From assembly GCF_037975245.1 (NCBI RefSeq), contig NC_092580.1:3012501-3076500 (forward strand): a DNA stretch of 64,000 nucleotides, given 5' to 3'. The notes beneath the pieces were generated by a model. It saw only the letters and a list, made by a program, of their open reading frames with translations, did not search any database and was not told the DNA's origin. This stretch comes from Apostichopus japonicus. Taxonomy: Eukaryota > Echinodermata > Holothuroidea > Aspidochirotida > Stichopodidae. Position numbers and translations under genes: made by a program. Shown here piece after piece: positions 25,001-58,587 of the stretch (positions within the stretch are counted from its first letter, which is position 1; each line of letters begins with the position of its first letter).

Positions 25001-28000
25001 GATCATTCATTACATGCTCAAATTTACAAAGATATTCTGAAACAGTATGGATCTCATGTTTTGAATCACAGTTATTCGATTCCCTTGTGACAATATATCG
25101 GTATTGGAAACTATGCATCGCATATCATGCATCTTGAGCTTCCGAACGAACTTACTTACGAACAATATATAAGTCAAAACGGTTTTATTGTATTGTTATA
25201 TGTCGAATATACAGATTTTCGGTTTCATATGTTGTTGGTGATGTTAGGTTTTACAATCAAGTTATTTTTATCCGTGTAAATGGAAATGCCACAAAGTCTA
25301 ACCCTGGTTGAGAGAGAGAGCCAATGCTGACTCACCTAATTGAGTTTGAGATGTGAAAACCCACTGTTATGTTCTGGGTTCTATTTAAAAGTTGTGCAGT
25401 GTTTTATCCCTTATTTTCTTATTTGTTTTAACACTGTATAATTTTTATAATACCTTCTTACAAATAGCGTTAGGTTAGTGCACTGTTTGGTTTGGTCTTT
25501 GTTAATAAATTACACTAACTGGACATCTGGAGTTAACTGATCTTCATTGGCTAGCCGTCCCAAATATCCGTACCCACACGGGTGTCCAACATTAAAAGAA
25601 AGTACATTTTGATGAAAATATATTCCAGCTAATATTAAGCATCTTAGACGGTTTTCATTATACTGAGTGACAGCCATACTTGTATTACTTTTCAATTTTT
25701 TTGGCTGCGTTTTTCATTACTCCTTTTTTAAATTTCATTCCTCTTGTGTCAGTTTCCCCAAGGAATAAGTCTGTTGCGATCGATGGATGTGAAAATGAAG
25801 AGGTCTGTTCGATACAATCCGCTTTGTCTGGAAGGATAACATGCTCGATTGAAGGATATAGACCTCCAATGCCACTTACTTGGGTTCAACTTGATAAACC
25901 CAGCTATACTTTAGTGTCGAATGTGGAAAGTCGCACCGTCCTTAACAATAAAACCGGGACAAGCACGTTTCATGTAACTGCGGATTACAAATTCGAGAAC
26001 TGCAGTGATCAGGCGGAACTCGCGTGTGTTGCTAATGCATCTATATATCAACAGAGCGAGTTCTCCTCGACTGTATCGTTAAGCGCAGGTGCAGTAATTG
26101 CATATATATATATATATATATATATATATATATATATATATATATATATATATATATATATATATATATATATATATGTATATATATATATATATATATA
26201 TATATATATGTATATATATATATATATATATATATATATATATATATATATATATATATATATATATATATATATATATATATATATATATATATATATA
26301 TATATATATATATATATATATATATAAAGCATCTTAGACGATTTTTCATCATACTGAGTAGCAGCTAAAGTTGTATTACTTTTCAACAGGTTCGACTGCA
26401 TTTTTAATTACTTCTTTCCTACATTTCATTCCTCTTATGTCAGTTAATATATACCGCAACGAGAATTATATCATTATGAATCATTATTTCTGCTAAGTTT
26501 ATGTAAACATACTTAACGTCTTCTTTATATATTAAAAGAGTACTGGGACCACAATTTATTAAGTTTATGTTATTTCTGCCGGTTACTTTCAGAATGCTCT
26601 ACAAATCCACCAAATGCACCTGCCATTGTCATCCCTTTGGTTATTGTGATCATCGGTGTTTTTGTTATTCTCATCGTGGTAATAAAATACAAAAGAGGTA
26701 TGTTTCACAACACATGTTATCGGCGTCTGAAGGATTTTGTGATATTAAATGAGACAATAACCTAACCGTCGTACTTGCTTATATACTTTTTATGGAGAAC
26801 AAAACACTTACATTTTAAGAAATTCTTGTTTTGTTTCGTTACGTCTGGGAGCAATCAATTTGTAAATATGTGATGTCATAGTTGCATTAGATCTGAGACC
26901 TTTCTCGTTCTCTGTTTTGGTACTTATTGCAGGGTAGCCAATGTTGAACTTAAATATAATGCCATCATTAGGGTAATCAATAGGTCATATTTTACATTCG
27001 GTATTGCAAAACCCATCTTTATCATGGGAGATAAATATTTTAACCAGGAACAACGTAAATTATTGAAGCACACATATGTGGATCATGCAGTGTTTACACT
27101 TGACCACGTCTCCAGCCTTGTTTGTAAAGAATCACTAACTCCGAGATATCTCTAAAATTGAATAATAACTAACTTAGCTGTTTTGGACCAATGATGATGG
27201 TTGGGTTTGTGTCTCATATAATATTTTGTTATCATAATAATTTGGCATCTCAAACAAGTTTGTGTGATTCGAAGCACCATAAATTTTAAAGGTATGATCT
27301 GCGAGGGTTATGTCAGATGCCATTTGAGTTATTTTGGTTTCAATTTCAACTCGATTTTTTCTCTATAGTTCTATGCCTTTACACTTATTTTCTTCACATG
27401 AGATGATATCAGAAAACTTTGGCCACCACATAAACAAGCTGAAGAAGATGAGGAAGCGACAATGGAATACGTTAGTTATTTGTACATTTCAATCCTTATG
27501 CATCACCTTGGCAGTGTTTAATCTAACAATAGCTCTTATGTTCACACAAAGATAACCTTAGTACAGAGCAAAAGCTAGGTTTCTCATGTAGTGAAAATAA
27601 AAATTTCACACCAGTTTCAGGCAATAGGTGATCCTTATCTAACTACTCGATTGCATAATTACCTTAAGCAGTGATAGAGTGAAAAGAGTGACTTTGATTG
27701 AAGAAACTTACCTTTAGTTCGCTAATTTGTAGCTCAATGTACATATAATAGCATAAACTTGTAGGTGTTTACAATCTCTTTAAATTATAACATTGTTTCA
27801 ATCTGCAGAAAAAGGTTTCAATAAAATCTGAGATGGTAGAGAATACAAGTGGTGAAACTTCGTCACTCATCGAAGGTCATCAAAAAACAGAGGCAGTTGT
27901 ACGTAAGACGTTCCTTGGAATGATTACATTGTTTAAACTAAAAACAAAACCAGTGCATTTTAATAATCTTTACGTTATTAAAGTATATCCTTTATTCTAA

Positions 28001-58587: not shown

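Follow-up and report, generated by a model that had tools for sequence, protein, structure and literature searches.

A sea-cucumber family of immunoglobulin receptors whose tails appear to be built from tandem phase-0 mini-exons, apparently one helix each

In a 64-kb stretch of the genome of the sea cucumber Apostichopus japonicus (contig C20, NC_092580.1, positions 3012501-3076500; hereafter the window, whose coordinates are used unless a contig is named), exons for an immunoglobulin (Ig) and transmembrane (TM) head are followed on the forward strand by a long row of very small exons. Do these mini-exons belong to the receptor, and what kind of polypeptide would they encode? We propose an echinoderm family of immunoglobulin superfamily (IgSF) receptors with a cytosolic tail made of many capped amphipathic helices in succession, each encoded by its own phase-0 exon and arranged in super-repeats, and from the sequence we put the probability of this reading at roughly 60%.

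Seventy-five phase-0 exons could be placed at 27809-58587, together encoding 1351 codons and a stop. All 75 lengths are divisible by 3, and all 74 introns (92-954 nt, median 332) are bounded by GT and AG. The first-pass annotation had described about 75 such exons, 44 of them of exactly 18 codons; the row stands, with its marked excess of 54-nt units, and the count of these becomes 43 of 75. The remainder span 42-90 nt: seven exons of 42 nt (the last one including the stop), six of 48, four each of 45 and 60, two each of 51, 57 and 78, and one each of 63, 66, 69, 72 and 90. A chain search that allowed any phase, its splice and codon models having been fitted to 33 local 54-nt exons and then to its own output, recovered 64 array exons, 63 of them phase 0-0, and scored 558 on the forward strand versus 64 on the reverse strand of the window. 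Two of the 64 (27809 and 58143) end elsewhere in the final list, the phase-0 donor of 58143 scoring better, and the remaining 11 of the 75 were added by a relaxed search or by eye. From 27809 on, the relaxed search placed 69 of 82 exons in phase 0-0, with 7 of 52 in its reverse-strand control.

The regularity of the row is not a product of chance. A plain 54-nt criterion applied to the whole window selected 35 segments on the forward strand and none on the reverse, against a mean of 0.2 and a maximum of 2 in 60 first-order Markov simulations. When the spacing of acceptors and donors was counted without regard to reading frame, 24 generic pairs lay 54 nt apart, versus 4 at the next best length and a mean of 1.04 per length, and the forward-strand spacings fell 63:18:14 modulo 3; the minus strand gave no pair at 54 nt and a ratio of 16:18:11, and four other stretches gave 1, 0, 1 and 2 pairs. 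A scan of 224 kb for phase-0 exons of 42-66 nt placed 92 of its 96 candidates in this array (57) and in those of two neighbouring genes, N1 (19) and N2 (16).

These neighbours belong to a larger family. A search of the genome (671,581,487 bases in 35 contigs) with the head, in which the best 84 of 621 candidates were scored, so that counts are lower bounds, placed the exon for Ig domains 2 and 3 at at least 11 sites on C20, including this gene, and at least one on contig C12, with E values of 1e-17 or better. Besides this gene, those on C20 comprise N2 (2.994 Mb), N1 (3.078 Mb) and eight at 25.26-25.83 Mb; weaker head matches on contigs C16, C12, C9, C4 and C1 may reflect general Ig likeness. 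We read the DNA behind the heads of this gene (+), N1 (+), N2 (-) and two paralogues of the distant cluster, here called loci C3 (+) and C4 (-), that is, behind four of the ten other C20 heads. On the strand of the head, the 54-nt criterion selected 35, 13, 14, 12 and 14 segments in this gene, N1, N2, C3 and C4, respectively, and on the opposite strand none in each. The any-phase chain search returned phase 0-0 for 64/64, 20/22, 21/22, 31/31 and 38/38 exons in the same order. In N1, N2 and C4, relaxed searches restricted to phase 0 yielded 31, 23 and 40 exons, respectively, of which 22, 20 and 33 entered the analyses of order, hydrophobic moment and composition, the linker and a few weak or terminal exons being left out. 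The array of this gene is the longest among those read to their end, N1 and N2 having about 20 exons; the arrays of C3 and C4 reach the edge of the DNA that was read, with 33 and 40 candidate exons by there. The distal part of the C4 tail (C20:25348000-25353000) is more regular than the tail of this gene, and is maybe a younger, simple expansion.

Comparison between genes points to selection on an encoded protein. In 25 aligned exon pairs between genes, picked by hand from alignments (446 codons, 29% amino acid identity), codon positions 1, 2 and 3 differ at 0.545, 0.401 and 0.650, whereas random exon pairs (11% identity) differ at 0.686, 0.590 and 0.707. Conservation is thus strongest at the second codon position, as would be expected for a protein.

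The encoded segments have the marks of amphipathic helices. In each of three exon sets the hydrophobic moment at 100 degrees was higher than in any of 200 shuffles, with the peak at 90 degrees in steps of 10, which bears out the helicity claimed by the first-pass annotation. Its motif, assigned to every exon, survives as a tendency: among the 43 54-nt exons hydrophobic residues occupy position 6 in 93%, position 10 in 88% and position 1 in 70%, and serine, threonine, aspartate or asparagine stands at position 2 in 47%. Pooling 90 exons of 18 residues, these four residues occur at position 2 in 47, the next highest count being 35, at position 16; proline is found 8 times at positions 2-4 versus 3 times at positions 6-15, and glycine is commonest at position 17 (8 of 90). 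Each exon thus apparently specifies one capped helix.

An alternative is that the exons merge into a single long dimerising helix, a continuous coiled coil like that proposed for the tails of chicken BG proteins. Amphipathic helical periodicity is what such a structure would have, the BG genes share the plan of a head plus mini-exons, and 18 residues make five helical turns at 3.6 residues per turn, so that a continuous stripe is geometrically possible. The autocorrelation of hydrophobicity runs the other way. It is highest at lag 18 in this gene (+0.148) and at lags 36 and 18 in C4, a signal to which equal exon length itself contributes, and has no peak at 7 or 11; both of these lags are negative in this gene (-0.071 at lag 7) and near zero or negative in C4. 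The residues favoured at positions 2-4 and the glycine at position 17 suggest that every exon begins and closes a helix of its own, and the larger repeat is made of unlike helices. We consider a coiled coil of this kind improbable.

That larger repeat is the second level of organization. Where the first-pass annotation had seen a row of like helices, the tail instead consists of six super-repeats of 10-14 unlike helices. Exons ending in tryptophan (W) recur at 29731, 34870, 40315, 46442, 50800 and 55716, and similarity between exons has its top peak at lag 14, with lesser peaks at 12, 23, 25 and 26. Repeat columns were assigned by hand, omitting two exons of the third super-repeat (R2), two of the fifth (R4) and the last five of the sixth (R5); their signatures, among them IFLR.LLFS (c9), I.Y.YFL.SI (c6) and LF..I.EKAL (c7), are common, with variations, to this gene, N1, N2 and C4. 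An alignment of three-exon windows (41 rows of 44 made) was dropped as badly gapped.

Exon order is also held in common. In comparisons of this gene, N1, N2 and C4, 19 of 22 N1 exons and 18 of 20 N2 exons align in order within exons 51-74 of this gene, R4 being collinear with both neighbours, and the near neighbours therefore have, on this alignment, a common tail of about 20-25 exons. The order scores were 239.5 for N1 with this gene (mean of 100 shuffles 108.5, maximum 135.5), 255.5 for N2 with this gene (134.6, 177) and 173 for N1 with N2 (83.8, 135.5). Among comparisons with C4, only that with N1 exceeded its shuffles (208.5, maximum 190). Self-comparison of 27.8-58.6 kb by blastn, with the dust filter on, gave no pairs at E 1e-3, that is, no recent tandem duplication of DNA, and the duplications therefore look old.

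Order bears on a different view of the row, namely that it is an alternative-splicing device in which subsets of symmetrical exons are chosen to make many tails from one gene, comparable in spirit to the PEVK region of titin. Because all 75 exons start and end in phase 0, any subset would keep the frame, and array length does differ between paralogues. The exon order that this gene has in common with N1 and N2 argues for a fixed order, however, and collagen genes have symmetrical exons but are not known to use them in this way. As the main role of the array, such a device seems to us unlikely.

On whether head and tail form one gene, the paralogues bear most. The six head exons, from signal peptide to juxtamembrane segment, join in one frame through phase 1 introns and then pass into phase 0. 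They have the attributes of an IgSF receptor, with Ig domains, a signal peptide (judged by eye) and a single TM segment, and Pfam Ig models score above cut-off (C2-set_2, 3.9e-12; Ig_3, 9.2e-11; V-set, 1.1e-8; ig; I-set). The mini-exons might still belong to a separate helical-repeat protein encoded next to an Ig/TM receptor, and the linker exon at 27809 does have a weak donor. Yet head, TM-like exon and mini-exon array follow one another on one strand in 5/5 loci read as DNA, which come from two widely separated clusters and include both orientations. All five have a TM-like phase-1 exon in the interval from head to array, with 0/5 on the opposite strand and 0/50 in 3-kb control windows. A sixth locus fits the same design through individually weak protein matches: 20 of 49 listed matches to the C4 tail are collinear at C20:25242213-25257233 (-), with E values of 3e-4 to 1.9 each, behind a head at 25261255-25264970 (-). 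The union of head and tail suggested at the outset is upheld, and two adjacent genes are very unlikely.

Searching the genome with the tail itself was uninformative about paralogues: all matches listed (at least 38 to E 10, from the best 34 of 56 candidates) lay within this gene, so diverged paralogue tails are not detectable in that way. A query of TM segment plus linker gave one further weak match, on contig C12 (E 0.289). In N1 the linker between TM segment and helices (C20:3080743-3083080) is itself split into small phase-0 candidate exons rich in aspartate, glutamate, glutamine, proline and serine. The linkers at 27809-27898 and in C4 (near C20:25364694) contain the dileucine-like strings ETSSLI and ENEALL, respectively, which we take to be candidate acidic dileucine sorting motifs; none was seen in the linkers of N1 and C3.

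Does the tail correspond to a known fold? Pfam gave nothing above any cut-off for the tails of this gene, C4, N1 and N2, and its best E value for eight core stretches was 0.022, so that the profile search proposed by the first-pass annotation assigned the tail to no family. A match of Phage_XkdX to the N2 tail (E 0.0029, 18.1 bits versus a cut-off of 23.5) was taken as chance. By sequence, the Protein Data Bank (PDB) held no match to E 10 for this tail and one at 2.2 for that of C4; a profile of the best conserved stretch matched 13 distinct PDB sequences to E 10, none significantly. Up to E 10, Pfam gave none of TPR, PPR, HEAT, ARM or Sel1 for these four tails, although HMMER filters may hide weak repeats.

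The best of the PDB profile matches, calcineurin B at E 0.16, raises the idea of a degenerate EF-hand array in which exon borders would separate E from F helices (36 = 2 x 18) and the calcium sites would have been lost; the exon start I-[ST]-x-x-E-F resembles an EF-hand F helix. This match is not significant, Pfam gives no EF-hand model up to E 10 for these tails or up to E 1 for the eight core stretches, and the loop pattern D.[DNS].[DNSG]G occurs in 0/4 tails (this gene, N1, N2 and C4). An EF-hand origin is accordingly hard to credit. The view that the row is a chance or decayed set of open AG-GT segments picked by eye, for which some weak sites and short exons might speak, is refuted by the simulations, by the empty opposite strands of the five loci, and by the exon order and protein sequence that N1 and N2 keep.

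Several observations weigh against the capped-helix receptor tail that we favour. Glycine also occurs in mid-exon (5 of 90 at position 8), and this gene has no strict hairpin alternation, with a mean exon similarity of 0.58 at lag 1 and -0.35 at lag 2. The marker exon of type I.Y.YFL.SI was not found in the fourth super-repeat (R3), and the order scores of C4 with this gene (197.5; shuffle mean 184.2, maximum 243.5) and with N2 (136.5; 118.3, 169.5) lie within their shuffles. This gene itself supplied the training data for the splice and codon models. Six exons (27809, 31378, 43774, 49909, 53280 and 56784) score below 2 at the acceptor or the donor. The relaxed search favoured other phases around 31.2-33.2, 44.8 and 49.1-49.9 kb; because of these three short stretches, an occasional exon assigned to R0, R2 or R3 may be incorrect.

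If the proposed receptor is correct, its head would comprise a signal peptide, four Ig domains, one TM helix and a short charged linker, and signal peptide and TM segment together would place the tail in the cytosol. The mini-exons would be spliced together into one tail, about 12 helices (about 200 amino acids) making up a super-repeat, and consecutive helices may pack side by side into a rod resembling an alpha-solenoid. Such an array could have grown by duplication of single exons and of multi-exon blocks, since phase 0-0 borders permit duplication and skipping without frameshift. The tail would probably act as a cytosolic helical scaffold: the Ig head would most likely bind a ligand or a neighbouring cell, the rod coupling binding to cytosolic partners such as the cytoskeleton or adaptors. 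Rod length would determine how far the tail reaches or how many partners can dock, and exon skipping might adjust it. That exon number varies between paralogues suggests that tail length matters. More tentatively, and with considerable doubt, we entertain the idea that these tails are a new class of helical-repeat protein in which the folding unit is the exon and which duplication of exons has enlarged and rearranged within an echinoderm receptor family. Together with exon skipping, this would equip coelomocytes or other cells with receptors whose cytosolic rods are adjustable, and the BG-type plan would have been invented a second time, on another fold.

Such a system would be informative in several ways. 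A coincidence of exon border and helix border over about 75 units, together with neighbours of about 20 exons, would offer a natural series for the growth of repeat proteins by exon duplication. The family would supply candidate variable receptors in animals without antibodies, and genes of this kind may go unrecognised or be split in standard annotation.

Table 1. Predicted features of the receptor gene in the 64-kb window (window coordinates)
Feature	Position	Strand	Remarks
Exon 1, signal peptide (by eye)	22008..22071	+	21 residues, in-frame ATG, GT donor, ends in phase 1
Ig domain 1, V-set like	22662..22970	+	phase 1-1; Pfam V-set E 1.1e-8
Ig domains 2+3, single exon (C2-set_2 / Ig_3)	23824..24465	+	phase 1-1; Pfam C2-set_2 E 3.9e-12
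Ig domain 4	25753..26088	+	phase 1-1; head carries 4 Pfam Ig_3 stretches
Transmembrane exon	26593..26697	+	phase 1-1, 34 residues; counterpart in 4/4 paralogues read as DNA
Juxtamembrane exon	27403..27470	+	phase 1 to 0; (D) + 22 residues
Linker exon, 30 residues	27809..27898	+	opens the phase 0-0 row; donor score -0.6, end uncertain
Three mini-exons ahead of first super-repeat (69, 54, 51 nt)	28357..29317	+	
Super-repeat R0	29731..34632	+	10 mini-exons; first ends in W (STTW); divergent copy
Super-repeat R1	34870..39455	+	12 mini-exons; W exon 34870-34923
Super-repeat R2	40315..46153	+	14 mini-exons; W exon 40315-40368; 41446 and 42150 outside repeat columns
Super-repeat R3	46442..50583	+	11 mini-exons; W exon 46442-46495
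Super-repeat R4	50800..55109	+	14 mini-exons; W exon 50800-50853; 52546 and 52816 outside columns
Terminal super-repeat R5	55716..58587	+	10 mini-exons, last five outside columns; last exon 13 residues + TAA stop

The surroundings of the gene (Table 1) include an AT dinucleotide repeat of 112.5 copies at 26102-26326, between the exons for Ig domain 4 and the TM segment. On the minus strand, Ig-like open frames at 9213-9530, 17359-17763 and 18988-19347 and a TM-like stretch at 8319-8591 are read as another IgSF gene or genes (8319-19347). These Ig exons are not among the scored head matches (best 84 of 621), and the 224-kb phase-0 scan found one 45-nt candidate near them and no mini-exon array. 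Beyond the end of the receptor gene, remnant open frames at 58929-59633, in which both strands show LTQEYC.AL.AL.HAFTHCDT, and a 164-bp tandem repeat (60070-60424) are perhaps a decayed mobile element. Elsewhere in the assembly, contig C35 has a COX1 frame that is open for 517 codons under genetic codes 5, 9 and 13 alike and for longer under 14; openness therefore does not discriminate, but under the echinoderm code (AAA = Asn, ATA = Ile) its residues look correct to us. Several COX1 pieces on C29:14745-31219 are taken to be either mitochondrial copies or a misassembled mitochondrial multimer.

How, then, does this family compare with known systems? Fibrillar collagen genes contain long tandem rows of phase-0 exons of exactly 54 nt, a likeness that ends at the level of the protein: in place of Gly-X-Y exons we find amphipathic helices, with glycine at 42 of 1620 residues (90 x 18). 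Alpha-solenoids (TPR, PPR, HEAT, ARM and Sel1) are likewise long rows of short amphipathic helices, and two exons give 36 residues, a usual repeat length, but no Pfam match to those families was obtained up to E 10 in four tails and this gene lacks a simple two-helix alternation. The head, with V-set and C2-set_2 (CD80-like) domains, resembles those of vertebrate butyrophilins and B7-like receptors. Mammalian BTN tails carry a small number of heptads and, as a rule, a B30.2 domain (PMC5938342), for which (B30.2/SPRY) Pfam gave no match in the tail here.

No published account of this receptor family was found in open-licence PubMed Central (PMC) full text, though papers on the chicken BG genes turned up, and these supply a parallel for the architecture that the first-pass annotation did not recognise, an Ig/TM head with a mini-exon tail (PMC4046983, PMC5938342). 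BG genes are described as having 13-36 phase-1 exons, mostly of 21 nt, behind the head, the number varying from 13 to 36 between genes of the B12 haplotype; the tail exons are read as a heptad coiled coil, one BG tail (known as zipper protein) has an effect on actin-myosin, and the exon number of BG1 is implicated in virus resistance (PMC4046983, PMC5938342). Both systems have signal, Ig and TM exons ahead of numerous very small symmetrical exons for an amphipathic, helical tail in the cytosol, and both are multigene families in which exon number varies between genes. They part in the unit, here 54 nt in 43 of 75 exons, with all 75 in phase 0 and none of 21 nt in searches whose lower length limits were 21-27 nt; in periodicity, the sea-cucumber tail having no lag-7 signal and apparently discrete capped helices in super-repeats; and in scale and host, with four Ig domains and 75 exons in an echinoderm. 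Because the two differ in the length and phase of the unit, in periodicity, in the number of Ig domains and in super-repeats, we do not file the family as a BG member, and we judge the likeness to be a convergent plan, not homology. By this analogy chicken BG is the closest known design, and the echinoderm family is best regarded as a variant of its plan; if our reading is right, an Ig receptor with a tail of tandem symmetrical mini-exons would have arisen independently, in another phylum and with another folding unit.
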